A stretch of 64,000 nt of DNA, taken from positions 19,226 to 83,225 of the forward strand of contig JAFUFU010000041.1 of NCBI GenBank assembly GCA_017469785.1, in the 5' to 3' direction. This document shows, piece by piece, positions 55,943 to 64,000 of this stretch (positions within the stretch are counted from its first letter, which is position 1; each line of letters starts with the position of its first letter). This stretch comes from Treponema sp. (lineage in GTDB: Bacteria; Spirochaetota; Spirochaetia; Treponematales; Treponemataceae). The translations under genes were made by a program, and so were the position numbers. Under the pieces are notes generated by a model that saw nothing but the letters and a program-made list of their open reading frames with translations, was not told the DNA's origin and did no database searches.

Positions 55943-56012
55943 AAAAGACTCCGACTACTTATTTTTCAACAATACTACCATAGAAGGGTATTTAAGTATA
56001 TGTAATTTTCTG

Positions 56013-56040
56013 TTGACTTTTAATTATTCTCCATTAGAAT
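56013..56040 (+). promoter_or_regulatory. Promoter of rubrerythrin gene
   Basis: TTGACT and TAGAAT are separated by 16 bases; the ATG is 33 bases downstream with GGAGG in between. No clear PerR or Fur box was recognised. Confidence 0.65.
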
Positions 56041-56072
56041 GGATACAATATATTTTCCGGAGGTACTAAAGA

Positions 56073-56615
56073 ATGGAAAACATTAAGGGAACGCAGACCG
56101 AAAAGAACTTGCAGACAGCTTTCGCTGGTGAATCTCAGGCTCGCAACAAATACACTTACTATGCAAGCAAAGCACGCAAAGACGGATTCGAGCAGATTGC
56201 CGACATTTTTGAGGAAACAGCCCGCAACGAAAAAGAACACGCAAAAATCTGGTTCAAATTGCTTCACGACGGCGAAGTTCCATCAACAATCCAGAATTTA
56301 AAGGATGCCGCAGACGGCGAAAACTACGAATGGACCGACATGTATGACGGTTTTGCGAAAACAGCAAAGGAAGAAGGATTCCCCCGCATCGCAAAACTCT
56401 TCGAAATGGTGGGCGCAATCGAAAAAGAGCATGAAGAGCGATACCGCAAATTGCTGGACAATGTAACAGGCGAAAAAGTCTTCTCAAAAGACGGCGATGT
56501 TATCTGGCAGTGCGCAAATTGCGGTCACATCGTTGTTGGCAAAAAGGCTCCGGGAGCTTGCCCGGTTTGCAATCACCCCCAGAGCTTCTTCGAAGTCAAA
56601 AAGAACAACTACTAA
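56073..56615 (+). CDS. Rubrerythrin
   Basis: Cytoplasmic non-haem iron peroxidase of 180 residues that detoxifies hydrogen peroxide in anaerobes. The ferritin-like domain shows the diiron ligands in [32 protein letters not shown] and [13 protein letters not shown]. The C-terminal rubredoxin-like domain has [12 protein letters not shown] and [12 protein letters not shown]. Its presence supports an anaerobic or microaerophilic host. GGAGG lies ten bases before the start. Single-gene unit. Confidence 0.97.
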
Positions 56616-56628
56616 TTAAATTCTGCAA

Positions 56629-56680
56629 AAAAAGGGCTGTCCTAGAAGTAATTAAAGACTTCAAAAAGGACAGCCCTGTC
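56629..56680 (-). terminator. Terminator after the LRR lipoprotein gene
   Basis: GGGCTGTCC / GGACAGCCC (56634-56642, 56668-56676) encloses a smaller GAAGT / ACTTC stem. On the minus strand it is followed by seven T residues. It may also stop rubrerythrin transcripts. Confidence 0.75.
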
Positions 56681-56697
56681 CGGGCCTTGCGCGTTTC

Positions 56698-58341
56698 CTA
56701 ATCAGTCAGGCTTACTTCTCCATCAGAGCAGGTCACTTTCGAAACATTCGCATTGTCAAGCCAGTTTGTGCCCTTTGTAATGGCATTCCACTGCGCCATT
56801 GTGCCGGCAAAGGTAATGGCTGTAAGCTCGCTTGTATCGAAGGCACTATCTCCAATTGATTTCAGGCTTGCAGGAAGGGCTATTTCTTCTAAATTGTTGA
56901 AATAAAAAGCCTCTTCCCCGATGCTTTCCAGCTGACTGCCTTCTTCAAAAATAATGGTCTGCAAGGGGCTCTTGTAAAAGGCTCTGTCTGCAATTGTTGT
57001 AACGCTGGGAGGAATGATGATTTCTGTAGGACCAGAAAATTCTCCACCCAGTGCATTAATTTTCGTAATTTCAGTTCCTTCCTCAAAGCGCATGGTCAGC
57101 TTTGAATTGTAAAGAAACGGCGCGTCCATCATTACAGTTACATTTTTTGGAATGGTAATGTCACTGATCCCCACTGCCAAAAAAGAGTAAGTGAACAATG
57201 CGGTAAGGGTTTCCGGCAGGGTGAGCTCCACAAGATTTACCGGCATTTTAACATTTTCAAGCTTCCCTCCGTTCAGAAAAGTAAGATCACAAAAAGCCGC
57301 AAGAGGAAGATAGGTAAGAGCAGTTTCGCTCAGGTCAAGGGAAATTGCCATGCCGCTAAAGGTAAAGTCACAATAACCAGTTTCATGGTTCATTTCCATA
57401 GTGGTCTCTCCCTGAACGGCACAGATGGCTTCAAGAAGCGTGCTAAAGCGCTCATCGGCATATTCTGAGAGGGTGCTCATAGTGTTTTCATCCGCTGTAC
57501 CAAGAGTAGTCCAGTCCATGGCTTCTTTTGCGTCGGTCATATCAGTAATTTTTACGGTTACAAAGTCAAAACCGGCTTCCTGCTTTGCCTTCAATGTGTC
57601 CTGAAGCCCCTCAAGTTCGCTTGCCTTAACCGTAATCAGGGACGGAATGGTACCAGCCGCATAAGCTTTAAGAAAAACACCGCCGTTACAGAACTGGTAT
57701 TTAGGATGAGCAGTCTGGATTTCGCTGCGCTTGTATTCTTTTCCGTCAGCAGGGTCCCGGCTAAAAAGAACGCCGCTTTTCTTGTAGGTCAAAAGGTAAT
57801 GCAGAGAAGATGAACCGGACTTTATGATTTCGATACAGTAGTCGCTGTCAGAAAAGCCCTGGTCAAAAGAAGTAAGGCTTGTAATGCCTGTAATGCCAAG
57901 GCCGCTTGCAAGACCTGCCAGAAGTTCTTCTGCCTCAGTGCTGGCAGTGGCAAGCATTTTAAGGTTGGCGCTTTCTGCCCAGGTCGTCTTAAGCTTTGAG
58001 GCAATCAGTACCGGGTTTGAGTAGCCTTCAAGAAATTCATAATCACCGCTTGCTTCCTCTTCAGTAAACTGAACTTCAGAATAAAAGCGGTTTGCCGTCT
58101 TTTCGATGTCGCTTTCTGCAATCTGGCCTGTTCTTGTCAGAAAGTAAGCCATTGCATAGGCTCCGCAGGTGCTGGATTTTTTCATCTGTGCGCTATAGAT
58201 TGCGGTGTCTGCAACTGGCTCAGGTGTGCTGTCTGAGTCAGAATCATTACCACAGGAAGTAAGCCCCAAAAGAAGCGATGCTGCCATAAGGAGCGCAGCA
58301 GCTTTGACTGTCACAAAGTGAGTTTTGCTGATTTTCATCAT
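56698..58341 (-). CDS. Lipoprotein with C39-like peptidase domain and BspA-type leucine-rich repeats
   Basis: Protein of 547 residues with a lipobox LTSC at Cys30. Residues 48-210 resemble a papain-like C39 peptidase: Gln52 and Cys59 in AQMKKSSTCGAYAMAYFL, His181 in LHYLLTYKKSGVLF and Asp196 in RDPADG. Residues 330-540 contain BspA/LRR_5 repeats (LTAFAFCDLTFLN-like units, IPPSVTTIADRAFYKSPLQT, LPASLKSIGDSAF), known from oral treponemal and Bacteroides surface adhesins. The combination suggests a surface peptidase-adhesin. GGAGG precedes the start. It borders the cassette array. Confidence 0.75.
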   Translation of the reverse strand: MMKISKTHFVTVKAAALLMAASLLLGLTSCGNDSDSDSTPEPVADTAIYSAQMKKSSTCGAYAMAYFLTRTGQIAESDIEKTANRFYSEVQFTEEEASGDYEFLEGYSNPVLIASKLKTTWAESANLKMLATASTEAEELLAGLASGLGITGITSLTSFDQGFSDSDYCIEIIKSGSSSLHYLLTYKKSGVLFSRDPADGKEYKRSEIQTAHPKYQFCNGGVFLKAYAAGTIPSLITVKASELEGLQDTLKAKQEAGFDFVTVKITDMTDAKEAMDWTTLGTADENTMSTLSEYADERFSTLLEAICAVQGETTMEMNHETGYCDFTFSGMAISLDLSETALTYLPLAAFCDLTFLNGGKLENVKMPVNLVELTLPETLTALFTYSFLAVGISDITIPKNVTVMMDAPFLYNSKLTMRFEEGTEITKINALGGEFSGPTEIIIPPSVTTIADRAFYKSPLQTIIFEEGSQLESIGEEAFYFNNLEEIALPASLKSIGDSAFDTSELTAITFAGTMAQWNAITKGTNWLDNANVSKVTCSDGEVSLTD

Positions 58342-58438
58342 TTTTCCTCCGAAAACATATTTTCCTATAGTATAGCAAAAAATACACTTTAATAAATATA
58401 AAACAGGGCAAATATCGAGTTTTACATACTGAAAAATA

Positions 58439-58573
58439 TTAACTGTGGCGCAAGTTTATACGCAGAAATTCCAAGTGGAATAAGGGATTCTTCACTGTGT
58501 CCCCGACAAGCTGCTCAAGGTGATTGCTTAGCGGAACTCGTAAATCTTCCAGACACTTTGCATTATCTATCAT
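58439..58573 (-). pseudogene. Chimeric higB-higA remnant
   Basis: An open frame of 44 codons gives CLEDLRVPLSNHLEQLVGD, the middle of a HigB toxin. Immediately after this, the +1 frame gives EESLIPLGISAYKLAPQL, the N-terminal part of a HigA antitoxin. In the intact pair at 59680-60253 these segments are about 150 bases apart, so an internal deletion joined them. Confidence 0.65.
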
Positions 58574-58601
58574 CGGGCTCGACTCAAGGAAATTATATTC
58601 C

Positions 58602-58811
58602 TCATATTCTCATGTCAAAAGCCTTTTTTGTTTCACTACTAAATCCTAAATTTTCATAAAACTGGTGGGCTTCTTTTCTTGCAATTCCACTTAAAAGTAT
58701 TACTTTGTAGCAGTTATTCTTTTTTGCTGCTTCTATGGCTTTGTTAATTATTTTTTTTCCGAGCCCCTGATTTCTGTAGTTTTTATTATTTTCTGATAAT
58801 TGTATGTATAA
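58602..58811 (-). pseudogene. 3' remnant of a GNAT acetyltransferase
   Basis: The minus-strand frame ending in TGA at 58602 reads LYIQLSENNKNYRNQGLGKK, then a helical segment and ARKEAHQFYENLGFSSETKK. RNQGLGKK is the acetyl-CoA loop and YENLGF the C-terminal GNAT motif. A stop precedes the segment in frame, and no start or first half is present. Confidence 0.75.
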
Positions 58812-58825
58812 TTATAATAGAGAGG

Positions 58826-58911
58826 GCAAAATTGGCGCAAAAGTTGCGGTGGTGCAAAGCCACGAAGAGCAACTTTTGTGACAAACACTTTCGGAAAGGA
58901 CATTGTTAGGC
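58826..58911 (-). mobile_element. Degenerate attC-like site
   Basis: GCCTAAC (minus strand, 58911-58905) follows the stop of an HTH fragment by five bases, as R'' should. Further on, CAAAAGTTGC / GCAACTTTTG with inner TGG / CCA forms a hairpin. No clear R' was found, so this assignment is weak. Confidence 0.35.
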
Positions 58912-58915
58912 GATA

Positions 58916-59022
58916 TTACAACATTGCAACCCGAAGTTGCTTTCCAAATACAGATGCGACTTTCTGCAAAGTCGATAATCGTATATCCTCAGAATGATTT
59001 TCCATTCTTGAAATTACACTTT
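58916..59022 (-). pseudogene. C-terminal fragment of an XRE-type antitoxin
   Basis: The minus-strand frame gives LKSVISRMENHSEDIRLSTL then QKVASVFGKQLRVAML and a stop, the second half of an HTH antitoxin. The first half is missing because the GNAT gene ends directly before it. Confidence 0.6.
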
Positions 59023-59580
59023 TCAAAGTTTCCACTCATCTTTTAGGATAGAATACCAAACTTCATCAATAATGCCTTGATTACAAAATCCAGCTTTTCT
59101 TAAAGTTCCTTCATATTTCATTCCAATTTTTTGCATAACTCTGCCGGATTTTGGATTATTCTTATCATGATCCGCGGCAATTCTATTAAAGCCGACTTCT
59201 TCAAATAAATATTTAAGAACGGCAGAAGCTGCTTCTGGCATTATTCCATTTCCCCACCATTTGCTTCCCATGCAATATCCAAGTATTGCAGACATAGTTT
59301 CTTCACGGTAATTAACAACAGAAATATTTCCAATAATTGTTTTTTCAGATTTTAACTCAATTGCCCAATTATAGTAATCCTTTTTTGAATAGTTGTTTAT
59401 CCAATCTGTTAAAACAGACTTTGTAACTTCAGGATTTGAATGGGTGGGCCATGTTAAGAATTTTGTTACTATATCCTCACAAGCCCAATTGTTATACATG
59501 GCAAGATAATCTTCCATCCTAAACTTTCTAAGTATTAAACGGTTTGTTTCTAATTTTTCAGTTCCCTTATGATTTAACAT
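59023..59580 (-). CDS. GNAT N-acetyltransferase (RimJ/RimL type), cassette gene
   Basis: Acetyltransferase of 185 residues. ETNRLILRKFRMEDYLAMYN at the start, GYCMGSKWWGNGIMPEAASA with the acetyl-CoA loop, and FNRIAADHDKNNPKSGRVMQ then KIGMKYEGTLRKA are the RimJ/RimL-type signature. Substrate unknown; such genes are very common integron cassettes. AGGAAGCGAA lies before the ATG. The upstream leader begins right after the R' end of the attC at 59612. Confidence 0.9.
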   Translation of the reverse strand: MLNHKGTEKLETNRLILRKFRMEDYLAMYNNWACEDIVTKFLTWPTHSNPEVTKSVLTDWINNYSKKDYYNWAIELKSEKTIIGNISVVNYREETMSAILGYCMGSKWWGNGIMPEAASAVLKYLFEEVGFNRIAADHDKNNPKSGRVMQKIGMKYEGTLRKAGFCNQGIIDEVWYSILKDEWKL

Positions 59581-59611
59581 TTCGCTTCCTAAGCCCTCCA
59601 GTGGGGTGTCC

Positions 59612-59675
59612 GCCTAACAATGAGTTGTACCGCAGCGGGCTTGACCCGCTGTCGGCTTTGAACTTCTTGCTATGT
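59612..59675 (-). mobile_element. attC site of the higBA cassette
   Basis: On the minus strand it runs from ACATAGC through AAGTTCAAAGCCGACAGCGGG, loop TCAAG, CCCGCTGCGGTACAACT to GTTAGGC. It has the pairing and the unpaired bases expected of attC. It starts four bases after the higA stop codon. Confidence 0.7.
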
Positions 59676-59679
59676 GATA

Positions 59680-59997
59680 TTACGCATAAGCATACATTTT
59701 TATTGTTTCAAACTCAGGTGCATGATTATTTTCTTCTTCTTCCAAATCGTAAAGATTCTGAAGATTGAGCCAGAACTCTGCGGTTGTTCCAAAAAACTTA
59801 GAAAAACGAATTGCTGTGTCAGCTGTTATGGAACGATGCCCATGAATTATTTCTGAAATACGGGTTTGAGGAATATTAATTTCTTTTGCAAGACGATATG
59901 CTGAAATATTCATTGGAACAAGAAATTCTTCCTTCAGGATTTCTCCAGGGTGAATATTCGGTAATTTGTCATTAGTGGTAATCTGTGATTCGAACAT
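59680..59997 (-). CDS. higA: HigA-type antitoxin
   Basis: XRE helix-turn-helix protein of about 105 residues. NIHPGEILKEEFLVPMNISA at the N-terminus and YRLAKEINIPQTRISEIIHG then TADTAIRFSKFFGTTAEFWL are the HigA family pattern. It neutralises HigB and represses the pair. ATG 59997 is chosen since GGAGG lies eight bases upstream; it overlaps higB by 26 bases. Confidence 0.9.
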   Translation of the reverse strand: MFESQITTNDKLPNIHPGEILKEEFLVPMNISAYRLAKEINIPQTRISEIIHGHRSITADTAIRFSKFFGTTAEFWLNLQNLYDLEEEENNHAPEFETIKMYAYA

Positions 59998-60253
59998 TGT
60001 CTGCGCCTCCATTTTCAAAGGTAAATACAATTCTCCATTGGTCGTTTATACGGATTGACCAAAGCCCTGCAAGATTTTCTACCAACTGTTCAAGATTATT
60101 TCCTGGCGGAATTCTTAAGTCTTTAACTTCTTTTGCAGCTGCAATCATTCGGAGTTTCCGTCGGGCAACATTGTGAATAGTCGGCGGAAGTTTTTTACTT
60201 CTCTGTCCTTTGTAAATTAATTCTGTTTCAGAATCTCCAAATGAATTTATCAT
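59972..60253 (-). CDS. higB: HigB-type toxin (RelE superfamily)
   Basis: Ribosome-dependent mRNA interferase family protein of 93 residues. KDLRIPPGNNLEQLVENLAG and LWSIRINDQWRIVFTF are the HigB signature. It is encoded before the antitoxin, as usual for higBA. The promoter -10 box ends seven bases before the ATG and no ribosome-binding site is visible, so translation may be leaderless and weak. In cassette arrays such pairs stabilise the array. Confidence 0.9.
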   Translation of the reverse strand: MINSFGDSETELIYKGQRSKKLPPTIHNVARRKLRMIAAAKEVKDLRIPPGNNLEQLVENLAGLWSIRINDQWRIVFTFENGGADNVRITDYH

Positions 60254-60259
60254 AAATAT

Positions 60260-60288
60260 ATACTAACGCAAAACGGAAGTATTGTCAA
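60260..60288 (-). promoter_or_regulatory. Promoter of the higBA cassette
   Basis: On the minus strand TTGACA (60288-60283) and TAGTAT (60265-60260) are separated by 17 bases. A cassette with its own promoter is typical of toxin-antitoxin cassettes. Confidence 0.75.
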
Positions 60289-60335
60289 GGAAAAAGATAT
60301 ATAACTGTTTCTTTGTTCTAGCCTTAAAGTTCAAT

Positions 60336-60632
60336 TCATTTTTTTAGCAAGCTTTTTACACAATTTAATGACAAAATTTTGGCATTTTTGAAAATTATAT
60401 TATAAAACTTTGTTTTGTTTCGAGTAAACGCATAAATTGAAATGTCATTTTTATTCTTTTTTATTTCAATATCTGCATCATGTAAAAATTCTCTGATTGA
60501 TAAAAACTGTTTATAAGGAATGCTTTTTTCGTATTCTTCAAGTTTCTTGAAATATAAATTATCATCTATATCTTCACAATACATATACTTTAAGATTCTT
60601 GATTTTCTTATATTTCCATATGTTAATAACAT
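60336..60632 (-). CDS. Hypothetical cassette protein, 98 residues
   Basis: Lysine-rich protein without recognised motifs. It has two likely helices and a strand pair (DISIYAFTRNKTKFYNIIF). The leader after the attC R' end resembles that of the GNAT cassette. AT-rich codon use differs from most of the window. After its stop comes TTGAACTTTAAGGC, also found after the gene at 60941, then a short possible R' (GTTATAT) without a full attC. Confidence 0.55.
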   Translation of the reverse strand: MLLTYGNIRKSRILKYMYCEDIDDNLYFKKLEEYEKSIPYKQFLSIREFLHDADIEIKKNKNDISIYAFTRNKTKFYNIIFKNAKILSLNCVKSLLKK

Positions 60633-60671
60633 TTTTCTACTTAAACCTAGCGCCTCAAGTAGCGGGCGTCC

Positions 60672-60738
60672 ACATAACTAGCGTTTTAAACCGCACAGCG
60701 GCTTGACCGCTGTGTCGGCTTTGAAAACCATGTTATGG
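60672..60738 (-). mobile_element. attC site, well preserved
   Basis: On the minus strand CCATAAC, then GGTTTTCAAAGCCGACACAG, loop TCAAG, CCGCTGTGCGGTTTAAAAC and GTTATGT. Pairing covers nearly the full length, with one unpaired base in the GTTTT-C-AAAGCCG arm, as attC requires. Confidence 0.75.
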
Positions 60739-60940
60739 CAACTTTATTTCTTATACAGAATTAGCTTTCTTAATTTCTTTTTTCTTTAAGAATTTTTCTG
60801 TACAATTTTTGAATCAACGCTTCTATTATTATTTATTTTTTCAAGAGGCGTAAAGCCGCGTACTACCGCTTCTTCGTCCAGGCCTTAAAGTTCAATTTAA
60901 TTTTAGAAAGCAAGCTTGACTTGCTTTCTAAAATATTCTT
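60739..60940. other. AT-rich spacer with a 14-base perfect hairpin
   Basis: At 60901-60933 TTTTAGAAAGCAAG and CTTGCTTTCTAAAA are exact inverted copies; on the minus strand the loop is again TCAAG, as in the two attC sites. The rest of the spacer shows no gene. The hairpin begins eight bases after the stop of the gene at 60941. Confidence 0.55.
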
Positions 60941-61738
60941 TCACCATATTGGTGATGCAGAAATTCCGGTTATACAAGTATCTTTATATTTTGTTCCTTT
61001 GTATACATCATCAATTATTAGTTTTATTTTTTTTACCTCTCCAGAAATTTTTACATTTGTAATTTCAACGTAATCATTGAACTGTATTTTTATTTCTTTT
61101 TTATCATCTACAATCAATGTGGCACTTTTTAATCTTGAATTTTCCTTATACAAATGCGGCTTTTCAGGATTTACATATCCATTTAAAATCCTAATTATCC
61201 AACCGTTGTGAGAATTATTTTTATACACATCTTGCATTAATTCAAACTCAAGATATTCTCCAATTCCATAATCTTCTTTTCCTTCAACCCATGGAATATT
61301 ATCTTTTACAAATCCCCATATATCACAATCACCTGTGTACCATGCAAACAATGCCCCCTCCGGAGAATATGTATGATACTTGTCTGTTAAGGTTGAAGAC
61401 GCTTTTATGTTTTCTATCATACGACCATTTAAATTAGCATTTCCTAATAAGTCATTAATCTTGTAAGAATCAATTTTATCATCTATAAAACAGTCCATGC
61501 CATCAATAAAAAATAAATCATATTCATCATTTTTTAATTTTAAATAGCCATTTTTTTCAATTTCAAGAAAGATTTCCTTCTTATTGTCTGAATAAAATGG
61601 GTTGGTATAAATTTTTCCTTTATCATCGGTTGTTATTTCGCAGGTATCAGAATAATTATAATGGTTGAATTGTAATTGTTGCGAAAAAACAAACATACTT
61701 GTAAATGATATAAGCAAAATAAAAAATAATTTTTTCAT
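60941..61738 (-). CDS. Exported protein with NADase-type glycan-binding-like domain, cassette gene
   Basis: Protein of about 265 residues with a signal sequence (KLFFILLISFTSMFVFS). The C-terminal 130 residues, with NGWIIRILNGYVNPEKPHLY then SRLKSATLIVDD and DDVYKGTKYKDTCITGI, match a discoidin-like domain found in many exported bacterial proteins. The first half is not recognised. ATG 61738 is chosen because GAGGAAGGAAA lies upstream. AT content is high compared with the chromosome genes, in line with a cassette. Confidence 0.75.
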   Translation of the reverse strand: MKKLFFILLISFTSMFVFSQQLQFNHYNYSDTCEITTDDKGKIYTNPFYSDNKKEIFLEIEKNGYLKLKNDEYDLFFIDGMDCFIDDKIDSYKINDLLGNANLNGRMIENIKASSTLTDKYHTYSPEGALFAWYTGDCDIWGFVKDNIPWVEGKEDYGIGEYLEFELMQDVYKNNSHNGWIIRILNGYVNPEKPHLYKENSRLKSATLIVDDKKEIKIQFNDYVEITNVKISGEVKKIKLIIDDVYKGTKYKDTCITGISASPIW

Positions 61739-61778
61739 TCTTTCCTTCCTCAAAAAAAGCAGGCCAGTGTGCCTGTCG

Positions 61779-61857
61779 TCATAACATAATTTCTCCGTAT
61801 CAGCCATAATTTTTTTAAAGCCGACAAAACTGTCAGTATAAACTTCTTTCGGCTTTT
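61779..61857 (-). mobile_element. attC-like site, partly degenerate
   Basis: On the minus strand AAAAGCCG and CGGCTTTAAAA pair around a 26-base loop, and GTTATGA (61785-61779) forms the R' end. The next cassette begins CGACAGGCACACTGGCCTG, like the other leaders. The region in between is longer than in the two good sites. Confidence 0.45.
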
Positions 61858-61893
61858 ACTAAGTTCTTATTATATCATATTTTCAAGTTTTTG

Positions 61894-62145
61894 CTAAATT
61901 TTATACGGATACGCATCCGCTTTGGAAAGCATCCTTACGGCTTCAAATCCATTGTAGGCGTAGTCAGAGTTTCCCTTTATCTGAATGTCAACCACGGCCA
62001 CAATCTGCCCCTGCCCTGCCTGCTCTGAGTTAAGAACGGAAATTTTTTCTATAATTTGTGGGATTTCTTCAAGCCCCTCTGCCTCGGCAAAAATATGCCA
62101 GTCCGAGTTTTCTGTGATATAGGAAGAAATGCCTTTGCGCAGCAT
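61894..62145 (-). pseudogene. Response-regulator receiver fragment
   Basis: MLRKGISSYITENSDWHIFA, then EGLEEIPQIIEKI and VAVVDIQIKGNSDY with NGFEAVRMLSK, resemble a NarL-type receiver domain with the phospho-acceptor Asp in VVDIQ. The first strand and acidic pair are missing and there is no DNA-binding domain, so the gene is truncated at both ends. Confidence 0.65.
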
Positions 62146-62155
62146 TTTGTGGAAG

Positions 62156-62379
62156 AAGTGTTACAATCGGTGATTTATATGTGAGCGACCATGAAGTAAA
62201 GGGTAAGAAAGCGGACTCTCTTGGTATATACTGCATGAGCGGAAATGTATAATGGTACTTCATACTCTATGACCGCAAAAGGTTCAAGCAATCCATCCAA
62301 CCGAGATAATAACCTTGGATCCCGTGTTGTTCGGAACTCGGAATATTTGGACAGCTATTCTGACAATGCCATTCTATAA
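62156..62379 (+). pseudogene. C-terminal remnant of an FGE/sulfatase-modifying-factor-like gene
   Basis: On the plus strand one frame gives HEVKGKKADSLGIYCMSGNV, the core of the GNVWEW region, then a stop. The next frame continues NGTSYSMTAKGSSNPSNRDN then NLGSRVVRNSEY and ends at TAA 62377. Both are parts of the same FGE-type domain, so the gene is frameshifted and truncated. Confidence 0.65.
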
Positions 62380-62404
62380 ATGGTTCTTATTCAACTAACT
62401 GTTG

Positions 62405-62593
62405 TCATTTTTTTACTCCGCTTTTCTCCAGCCACTTGGCCACGTCTTTTGGAAGCGAGGAGCCGCCAGAGTAATGCACGGAAAGGCCGTCGCCGATTTT
62501 CGCATTCGGGGCGAGTTTCGATATGGCGGTGATGCTCTGCCCGAACCTGTCTCCGCAAGCACTGATTTTAGTTTCAGAGTTTCCTCCAAAAAT
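62405..62593 (-). pseudogene. C-terminal remnant of a flavodoxin
   Basis: The minus-strand frame gives ISACGDRFGQSITAISKLAP, then NAKIGDGLSVHYSGGSS and KDVAKWLEKSGVKK before TGA. This is the last third of a flavodoxin-type protein. A stop lies before it in frame, next to the end of the esterase gene. Confidence 0.65.
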
Positions 62594-62607
62594 CTATATC
62601 GAGAGCA

Positions 62608-63111
62608 TTATTTTCCGAACAGCCAGTCAAGCACCGCGTCGGATAGTCCGTTTTTCGCGGTCGCCTGATGGTCGCAGTCTTTCAGAACCATAATGTGCGC
62701 TTCGCCGCCTGCGGCTTGCAGTTGCGCGGCAAAATCCTCGTTTTTCCATACTTTGTTCGCGGCGGCTTCCGATTTTTTCTGTCCTTTTTCCGCACCTACC
62801 GTGTCGCTGTCGCCGATGATGATGAAAAATTCCGTTTTAGCAAGATTTTTGCTCGCCGACTTCGGCGGGTTTGATGCCATAACAACGGCTTTTGCGGCAA
62901 GGTCTGGATAGCGTTCTGCGAGAGACCACACGCCGACCGCGCCCTTCGATTCGCCCATAAGAAAAACCCATGCAGGCGGAACACCGTTTTCTGTGGCGAT
63001 TCGTGAAACGAGCGCGTTTACAGTGCCGCCGAGCGCACCCCACGATTTTTCAGCAGGACTCTGCGGCGCAAGTACAAGCGCATTGATTCCATTCCGCTCG
63101 ATGTACGACAC
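62608..63111 (-). CDS. Alpha/beta-hydrolase (esterase type), N-terminally truncated
   Basis: A 167-residue open frame with the second half of an esterase fold: nucleophile Ser55 in MGESKGAVG, acid Asp101 or Asp103 in IIGDSDTVG, and His148 in KDCDHQA. Full-length relatives have a further 80-150 N-terminal residues including the oxyanion loop. Upstream, five sense codons run back to a stop that directly follows an SH3-type gene. The reading starts at GTG without a ribosome-binding site. Probably a broken gene. Confidence 0.6.
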   Translation of the reverse strand: MSYIERNGINALVLAPQSPAEKSWGALGGTVNALVSRIATENGVPPAWVFLMGESKGAVGVWSLAERYPDLAAKAVVMASNPPKSASKNLAKTEFFIIIGDSDTVGAEKGQKKSEAAANKVWKNEDFAAQLQAAGGEAHIMVLKDCDHQATAKNGLSDAVLDWLFGK

Positions 63112-63143
63112 GGCGTCCGCCTTCCCCCTTACTTCTTGTGCTA

Positions 63144-63488
63144 CTAGGCATACATCTTGACATATCTTCCGTCTACCCAGCCGAGCGGAGTGCCTGGTAT
63201 AAGTTCGCCGTCTTTGTCATACGCCCATGTGCGGACATAGTACCAGTAATACCCTGCCTCGTTTTTTTCTGCGGTGTGCTTTTCCAGATAGACCTCAAAC
63301 GAGTCTTGATGAACGGTAAAAATCATTTCGCCGTCAGGAACATCATAAATGGGAATCATATCGCCGCCGTCCTGCTCCAGAAAGGCGTAATAGTCCTCGA
63401 CCACAGCCTTTGACAAATCGAATTTGCCAGCGAACGCAAAAGACGACAACACAACCGCCGACGCCAGAATCAGAAATATCTTTTTCAT
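63144..63488 (-). CDS. Exported SH3-like protein, 114 residues
   Basis: Sec signal MKKIFLILASAVVLSSFAFA, then a small beta-rich domain (MIFTVHQDSFEVYLEKHTAE, YYWYYVRTWAYD) ending LGWVDGRYVKMYA, a pattern seen in bacterial SH3 domains that bind peptidoglycan or proteins. AAAGGAGCGG lies before the ATG. It is the only gene between 61.9 and 63.6 kb that looks intact. Function unknown. Confidence 0.65.
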   Translation of the reverse strand: MKKIFLILASAVVLSSFAFAGKFDLSKAVVEDYYAFLEQDGGDMIPIYDVPDGEMIFTVHQDSFEVYLEKHTAEKNEAGYYWYYVRTWAYDKDGELIPGTPLGWVDGRYVKMYA

Positions 63489-63506
63489 AATCCGCTCCTT
63501 TCCCTA

Positions 63507-63662
63507 TTATACCACAAAAAAGGCGGGCAAGCCTACCCCGAAGTGCCAGCCGACCGTGCCGCCCCTAATCAGCACGAAGTCCGCGCTCGGTGAAGGAAAT
63601 TGCGTTGCGCTTGCCATTGCTAGCACTCCTAAAGCCAATAAAATTGAACTGAGTTTTTTCAT
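63507..63662 (-). pseudogene. N-terminal remnant of an FGE-like exported protein
   Basis: An open frame of 51 codons has a signal sequence (KKLSSILLALGVLAMASA) and then DFVLIRGGTVGWHFGVGLP. The part FVLIRGGT is the usual start of an FGE/SUMF1 domain, which normally continues with FxMGS. After this the frame diverges and stops. Confidence 0.5.
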
Positions 63663-63670
63663 CTTGCACC

Positions 63671-64000
63671 TTACCCTAATTTGTCATATTCCTCGTCCGA
63701 CACCGCCTCAAGCCATTCGTTGCTGGTGTCCTCGCCGCTGGGCTCGAATGTGATGTGGCTGAACCATGAATCTTTTTTCGCGCCGTGCCAGTGCTTCACG
63801 TTGGCTGGAATGACGATGACCTTGCCCGTCTCCAAACTCTCGGCCGGCTTTCCCCATTCCTGATACCAGCCGCTTCCCGCCGTGCAAATCAAGACTTGTC
63901 CGCCGCCCTTGCTTGCGTGGTGGATATGCCAGTTGTTGCGGCAGCCAGGCTCGAAAGTCACGTTGAAAATCGGAATCTCGCCCGCCTTCATGTCCGTGAG
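63671..64000 (-). CDS. Cupin-domain protein (5' end outside window)
   Basis: The minus-strand frame is open to the window edge. IPIFNVTFEPGCRNNWHIHH, then GGQVLICTAGSGWYQEWGKP and KVIVIPANVKHWHGAKKDS, give the two cupin motifs with metal-binding histidines (WHIHH, HWHG). Proteins of this type are often encoded with flavodoxins and esterases; remnants of both lie just downstream here. Enzymatic role unknown. Confidence 0.88.
   Translation of the reverse strand, partial: LTDMKAGEIPIFNVTFEPGCRNNWHIHHASKGGGQVLICTAGSGWYQEWGKPAESLETGKVIVIPANVKHWHGAKKDSWFSHITFEPSGEDTSNEWLEAVSDEEYDKLG

Follow-up and report, generated by a model that had tools for sequence, protein, structure and literature searches.

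A probable chromosomal integron platform in Treponema sp., with attI and cassettes present and the integrase gene missing

Integrons have been published in Treponema denticola, T. succinifaciens, T. vincentii and T. brennaborense (PMC3607928), and spirochaete attC sites have been modelled before (PMC8352920). Nearly a third of integron integrase (intI) genes have been reported to be pseudogenes, and a fifth of bacteria to carry more than one intI (PMC2426708). Arrays that lack an integrase tend to be classified as degraded integrons, and attI is not sought in them outside class 1; IntegronFinder 2.0 leaves it undetected there (PMC9024848). The locus described here lies on the minus strand of a 64,000-nucleotide stretch of Treponema sp. 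DNA (assembly GCA_017469785.1, contig JAFUFU010000041.1, positions 19,226 to 83,225; "the window"), between about 58439 and 61897. It holds an attI, two full attC sites and one broken one, with cassette genes in a defined order between them, while intI is missing both beside attI and from the assembled genome. We read it, with a probability of about 0.85, as a Treponema-type chromosomal integron platform whose integrase gene has been lost and in which a promoter-like site and attI lead into three cassettes.

The attC sites, attI and promoter-like site of the window

A reading made from the sequence alone had picked out two hairpins in this region and taken them for attC sites of an integron-type cassette array. 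Both hairpins are present and read on the minus strand, the one at 60672-60738 closing cassette 1 and the one at 59612-59675 closing cassette 2. They were searched with a covariance model (R1) made from 27 attC sites near intI in six relatives (G042, G049, G077, G001, G095 and G025), taken from arrays read beside intI at integron-integrase loci of the same genus, with the window sites left out; in its alignment, 14 of the 22 predicted pairs have at least one sequence changed on both sides. R1 matches the site closing cassette 2 at 67.2 bits (E 9.9e-17) and that closing cassette 1 at 63.7 bits (E 1.1e-15), which bears out the identification as attC, where a covariance search finding no attC had been named as its refutation, and assigns them to the type that lies close to intI elsewhere in the genus. 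On the plus strand 60672-60738 scores only 18.1 bits, and with the filters of R1 off the next-best place on the minus strand of 56000-64000 reaches 16.1 bits. A third attC, of a longer type, is truncated: what remains at 58825-58911 (minus strand) is the first R box (GCCTAAC, 58905-58911) with part of the inner stem, and the second half is missing. Over 61-64 bp it matches, at 92-97% identity, long attC sites in contigs C23 and C38 of the same genome, where whole copies of this type, about 131-133 nt in length, are found. Sites of this type lie at L047:11716-11848, L047:13144-13276, L046:7164-7296 and L058:9434-9565, and across genomes their inner part, which includes a branched stem, is closely similar.

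In the relatives, the end of intI is separated from the first cassette by a stretch with a conserved core, which runs up to the crossover triplet; the same core is present in the window. A sequence model (R2) made from 13 attI beside intI matches the minus strand at 61780-61848 (35.4 bits, E 5.7e-10), its only match in the 64 kb at E<=10, and the attI is placed at 61779-61848, with G 61785 and T 61784 flanking the expected crossover. Two attI outside R2 were recovered, at L077 (28.9 bits) and L082 (36.8 bits); L062, on the same contig as the model site L084, is hence not counted as held out. A profile of the R2 alignment gave, at 20 bits or more, no match in 7.17 Mb of order-1 decoys versus 50 in real loci totalling 0.72 Mb, these taking in one training locus and the loci fetched as attI matches. 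The possibility that the hairpins are ordinary chromosomal terminators or repeats, with no integron at all, draws its support from the palindromes themselves and is refuted by the R1 matches, the attI match and the anatomy of the array; we give it next to no credence. The Rfam scan of the window found nothing beyond one tRNA.

Before attI, at 61869-61897 on the minus strand, lies a promoter-like site (Pc) of the form TTAGCA-17-TATAAT with TG before the -10. A promoter scan of 4 kb placed it among five sites with 10 of 12 matches, and it alone among the sites listed has the TG; since that scan gave 21 sites where 16.6 were expected, the consensus match by itself proves nothing. Pc would transcribe the cassettes, and attI would be the point at which cassettes enter. 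With this site the right end of the feature, earlier given as 58439-61857, moves to about 61897. By eye, several attI in the alignment, including that of the window (61820-61848), have an inverted repeat (for example TTTACACTG...CAGTGTAAA) past the expected transcript start.

No intI was found upstream of the window attI within the 2.1 kb that remain before the contig (C46) ends, which is also the right end of the window. The earlier statement that there is no integrase in the 64 kb is supported but, because the contig ends so soon upstream of attI, was uninformative alone. In the source genome, the best match to the integron-integrase family was a general tyrosine recombinase, whose 71 bits fall short of the cut-off (265). 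Searching with 12 aligned IntI proteins gave general tyrosine recombinases only (best 64 bits) and no IntI remnant.

Set beside a complete integron, then, the locus has its attI (with the leader hairpin, described below, as a check) and its attC array, lacks intI, and has a candidate Pc recognised by consensus match only. It is because attI is present and intI missing that we take it for a platform that lost its integrase rather than for an array without a start. The sequence-only reading, whose integron-type array is supported by the attC and attI matches, had expected either a long array or a detached one, a cluster of attC sites lacking integron integrases (CALIN). A long array is ruled out by the three cassettes followed by broken pieces; formally the locus is a CALIN, with two attC sites within a few kb and no neighbouring intI, and it departs from that description in starting at an attI with a promoter-like site. 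Could it be a plain CALIN all the same, a piece cut from a larger integron with attI as a fossil that has no promoter function? The formal definition, the broken attC and the gene fragments on both sides would fit, but the attI match lies far above the decoys, a cassette leader stands exactly at the attI crossover and a -10/-35 pair precedes attI, and we consider this unlikely. As to the possibility that the same gene order recurs as ordinary chromosome in relatives, one close case speaks otherwise: the G059 orthologue of the lipoprotein gene next to the array, 84% identical, has different genes upstream, and no attC was found in the 15.9-kb contig around it. Nor did G059 supply an empty site for the array, its lipoprotein gene having other neighbours and no clean junction.

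Several points tell against the platform reading. The absence of intI from the source genome is strongly indicated and not final, given an assembly 97% complete in 63 contigs, so that an intI elsewhere is possible. The attI of the window scores below many others (35 bits, versus up to 63), and because of this lower score, together with the gene fragments at both ends, the locus may be decaying and silent. At E<=1, moreover, R2 finds no match in L026, L030 or T. denticola (L099), and therefore reaches the nearer relatives only. If the platform reading holds, an array without IntI would be frozen, with no cassette movement in the source strain unless an integrase came from elsewhere.

The three cassettes all read on the minus strand from attI, the third ending in the broken attC. 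Cassette 1 carries one gene (60941-61738), whose 265-amino acid (aa) product has a signal-peptide-like start (by eye) and a C-terminal NADase_transloc (F5/8 type C) domain (Pfam PF25302, E 2.2e-17); a start of this open reading frame (ORF) at 61807 was dropped, the ATG at 61738 coming after the leader. Near the 3' end of the gene, at 60900-60934, there is a palindrome of 15 pairs, terminator-like on the plus strand, whose loop letters resemble those of attC loops. Cassette 2 opens with an ORF of 98 aa at 60336-60632 that belongs to no family (best Pfam E 0.056), followed by a HigB-like toxin gene (59972-60253, 93 aa; Pfam PF05015, E 1.3e-21) and a HigA-like antitoxin ORF of the HTH_3 family (59680-60030; Pfam PF01381, E 2.1e-9 for 59680-60000). 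Cassette 3 encodes a GNAT acetyltransferase of 185 aa (59023-59580; Pfam Acetyltransf_3, E 3.6e-34), and Pfam thereby confirms the GNAT and higBA content read earlier from the sequence. Cassette 3 also holds the 3' end fragment of an XRE-type (HTH_3) gene at 58916-59020 (E 0.0039, under the family cut-off). Beyond this cassette are a 3' fragment of a second GNAT gene, adjoining the broken attC (58605-58811; Pfam Acetyltransf_1, E 3.5e-10, covering profile positions 69-116 of 116 only), and a HigB-like gene piece (58439-58573; a weak Pfam match, E 0.028, under the family cut-off), these too on the minus strand.

On the other side of the platform, GCGTATCCGTATAAAAT (61898-61914, minus strand) is the right part of an inverted repeat that was seen by eye upstream of Pc and attI in many relatives, and the junction between the platform and a piece of a LuxR-type response regulator gene falls, also by eye, within these positions. 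The piece (61894-62145, minus strand) corresponds to about codons 10-82 of a 208-216 aa protein and is broken at both ends, the left one joining the platform; it is 72-73% identical to open genes in G048, G032 and G026, that of G048 having Response_reg and GerE domains, and itself has no Pfam match at E<=1. Gene fragments continue to the right over 62150-63111; one of them, at 62608-63111, resembles a hydrolase (weak Pfam Hydrolase_4 match). Decay has set in at both ends of the locus, and the end pieces suggest deletions after the array froze.

Integrase-less platforms across the genus

An IntI over the curated cut-off was found in 28 of 98 genomes of the genus. For the other searches of these genomes about 50 first-look candidates were scored in each, so that the attC and attI counts are lower bounds, and attI matches below 28 bits were left unused. 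At that threshold R2 gave 62 attI in 38 genomes, 17 of them beside an intI over the cut-off and 45, including that of the window (L048), not; all 45 were read. At least three of the 17 are sites of the model itself (G095:C18, G048:C11 and G002:C39), and none of the 45 is. Two or more attI occur in 16 genomes. The source genome has three, on contigs C46, C23 and C34, along with at least 11 attC on four contigs (eight found with R1, then three more of the long type). Among the genomes with attC (R1, E<=1e-6) but no intI over the cut-off, 18 of 41 hold at least one attI, and many integrase-less arrays are for this reason taken to be orphaned platforms, whose expression, or use in trans, might still go on. 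Some of the genomes are bins so fragmented that intI may sit on a contig that is missing; better examples are G018 (99% complete, 30 contigs) and G063 and G004 (each 94% complete in 20 contigs).

Because R2 contains no leader sequence, a leader after an integrase-less attI is an independent check that the attI is occupied. In its strictly paired form the leader follows 34 of the 43 integrase-less attI that entered this test. All 45 entered a test with a looser motif, one of them lying at a contig end, and the motif follows 41 of the 44 that could be evaluated, versus 283 of 57348 background positions from 42 of these loci. Upstream, a piece of intI was detected by tblastn (E<=0.01) at 15 of 43 integrase-less attI, 11 of the pieces reaching the C-terminal end (residues 309-312); three of the 15 have only 35-42% identity. 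A hexamer like the -10, with at least five of six matches, lies 70-115 nt before the crossover at 35 of the 45, compared with 29 of 180 control windows.

Across the genus, then, intI would have been deleted many times, sometimes with its last codons left behind, and Pc and attI would often have been kept, possibly since the cassettes need the promoter. If moving cassettes is costly and expressing them is useful, one would expect intI to be lost repeatedly and Pc and attI to stay. This picture has to be set against the 10 of 45 integrase-less attI that have no hexamer with five matches; and since R2 cannot see platforms that have lost attI, the search itself biases the result towards retention of Pc and attI. 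Inspection by eye of G063:C9:64805 and G024:C8:171599 showed the intI coding sequence joined to the platform at a shared ATCCGC, which looks like loss of the last part of intI between short repeats, and at G081:C8:3500-6900 two attI lie close together with several pieces of intI that are broken and contain stops.

The several platforms of a genome might instead be served in trans by one integrase, the intI of the source strain being unassembled or recently lost. G005, G041, G066 and G096 each carry IntI and a pair of attI (both scoring at least 28 bits), of which one does not lie beside intI, so that in these genomes an integrase acting in trans is possible, and the three attI of the source genome, with its attC spread over four contigs, are in line with such an arrangement. 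Against it, no intI was found in the source genome, and in G081 and in G009 two of the attI lie close together on one contig; we regard this explanation as a possible but rather doubtful one. Arrays on contigs C38 (L047:15415-16142) and C57 (L045:10356-11083) of the source genome have a 728-bp block in common, at 88.6% identity.

The leader hairpin at cassette starts

Directly after the last R box, of attC and attI alike, there stands in most cassettes a short hairpin of the form N-N-A-[5 bp]-(n)-CACTG-[5 bp]-N, here called the leader, in which the second base pairs with the base past the stem, the A is bulged and the loop is CACTG. The similar leaders that had been noted after the two hairpins of the window are real, and with the one after attI the window has three, all on the minus strand. 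That of cassette 1 (CGACAGGCACACTGGCCTGC, 61759-61778) has good form and is followed by a T run. The leader of cassette 2 (GGACGCCCGCTACTTGAGGCGC, 60650-60671) is a wider-loop variant, found also in contigs C57 and C38 of the same genome, and fails the strict test; that of cassette 3 (GGACACCCCACTGGAGGGC, 59593-59611) has a partly decayed stem and fails strict pairing as well, with the bulged A and the loop kept.

A strictly paired leader follows 167 of 204 attC sites from 38 loci, which were mostly chosen as attC-rich or near intI and so are not a random sample. Shuffled leaders pair in 314 of 4080 cases, and when the register is shifted by 1, 3, 10, 20 or 30 positions the count falls to 10-26 of 204 (73 of 204 for a shift of 2, which keeps the inner stem). 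An earlier, looser hairpin count (139 of 150, versus 86-107 in controls) was much less telling. While strict pairing was scored on all 204, covariation was examined in the 176 leaders whose loop falls at a fixed index, of which 64 are distinct and were used. Picked in this way by the loop alone, these have 351 of 384 stem cells paired, as against a mean of 256 and a maximum of 274 in shuffles. In a MAFFT alignment of leaders, the four testable pairs are paired at 93.0%, compared with 80.3% when shuffled and at most 47.7% when slid.

Where two sites are separated by 60-3500 nt the interval was counted as a cassette, which gave 166. The strict leader is present in 126 of the 150 with a forward ORF, in 6 of 8 ambiguous ones, in all 7 classed as ORF-less (two of which are the same 145-nt cassette) and not in the single one classed as having a reverse ORF. 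Where the first ORF starts at least 60 nt away, the leader motif occurs in 34 of 43 cassettes, compared with 103 of 117 with a near ORF and 225 of 150194 background positions. In 78 of the 126 cases measured, the start codon follows the leader at 7-28 nt, and a T-rich stretch follows 59 of 167 leaders.

We tentatively propose, at a little below even odds, that the leader is part of the recombination end of the cassette, extending attC on the folded single strand. This role is favoured because the distance to the crossover is fixed and because the hairpin is present where no ORF is near. The nearness to start codons, the T-rich stretches and the leaderless reverse-ORF cassette speak against it, in that they suit a role in the mRNA equally well, for instance as a 5' element shielding the start site or causing attenuation of transcription, and the first leader of the window was scored as terminator-like. 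The fixed distance to the crossover and the retention in ORF-less cassettes and in most of those with a distant first ORF tell against an mRNA element, which we put slightly behind as a possibility. Whichever it is, the leader is a conserved, covarying element in a fixed place, and it raises the question of what besides attC makes a cassette.

Shorter versions of the leader, with other loops, were seen in T. denticola (L099) and at other spirochaete loci; they are few and weak. In five non-spirochaete arrays a hairpin in this position is about as frequent as in shuffled sequence, with 1 of 13 sites in L113 (2.1 expected), 2 of 13 in L115 (2.8), 0 of 13 in L122 (1.7), 3 of 15 in L127 (3.4) and 1 of 14 in L155 (0.7). 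Counts above expectation came from L135 (5 of 8; 3.1 expected), L134 (3 of 7; 1.6) and L137 (2 of 4; 0.7), where the scanned sites look doubtful. These counts come from a crude, hand-made attC scan of 80 IntI loci that mixes in false sites, and they are a hint only as to other phyla. A hairpin at the leader position was also read at one site in Nitrospira (L128). The leader is likely to be spirochaete-specific. In contigs C57 (L045) and C38 (L047) of the source genome there are also leader motifs with no R1 attC before them, and further decayed or unusual sites may exist.

Put together, a cassette end in two parts (attC and, one base on, the bulged hairpin) and one integrase acting in trans on several scattered attI would make up one system, which we offer as speculation and judge rather improbable as a whole. 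If it were true, the genus would have multi-site integrons, with most platforms lacking an integrase.

Comparison with described integrons

In the literature searched, mainly open-access, neither the leader hairpin nor the presence of several (dispersed) integrase-less attI platforms in one genome was found described, and in the portions consulted of PMC4909258, PMC8876359 and PMC6557892 no second hairpin like the leader was found. The delta-attI cassettes of mobile integrons, in which attI replaces attC (PMC12901181), are a different thing from the platforms described here. The CALIN as defined in PMC9024848 shares with the window locus the two or more attC and the lack of intI; unlike it, the window locus keeps an attI and a promoter-like site. 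The intI pseudogenes of PMC2426708 are alike in that the integrase decays while other parts remain, whereas here at most a piece of intI has escaped deletion, and it is attI that was counted.

Close to the window locus stand the Treponema integrons of PMC3607928, which likewise have cassettes bounded by attC; their intI is read towards attI, in the direction of the cassettes. That work, in the part compared here, states one attI per integron and concentrates on attC, and describes neither the attI of integrase-less arrays nor a cassette leader; the locus of the window, unlike those integrons, has no intI. The same paper reports an integrase-less array in T. phagedenis, which resembles the present one in having attC and cassettes without intI. 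There the loss is presented as a single one in one branch, whereas here integrase-less arrays occur in many genomes and the start of the platform is kept.

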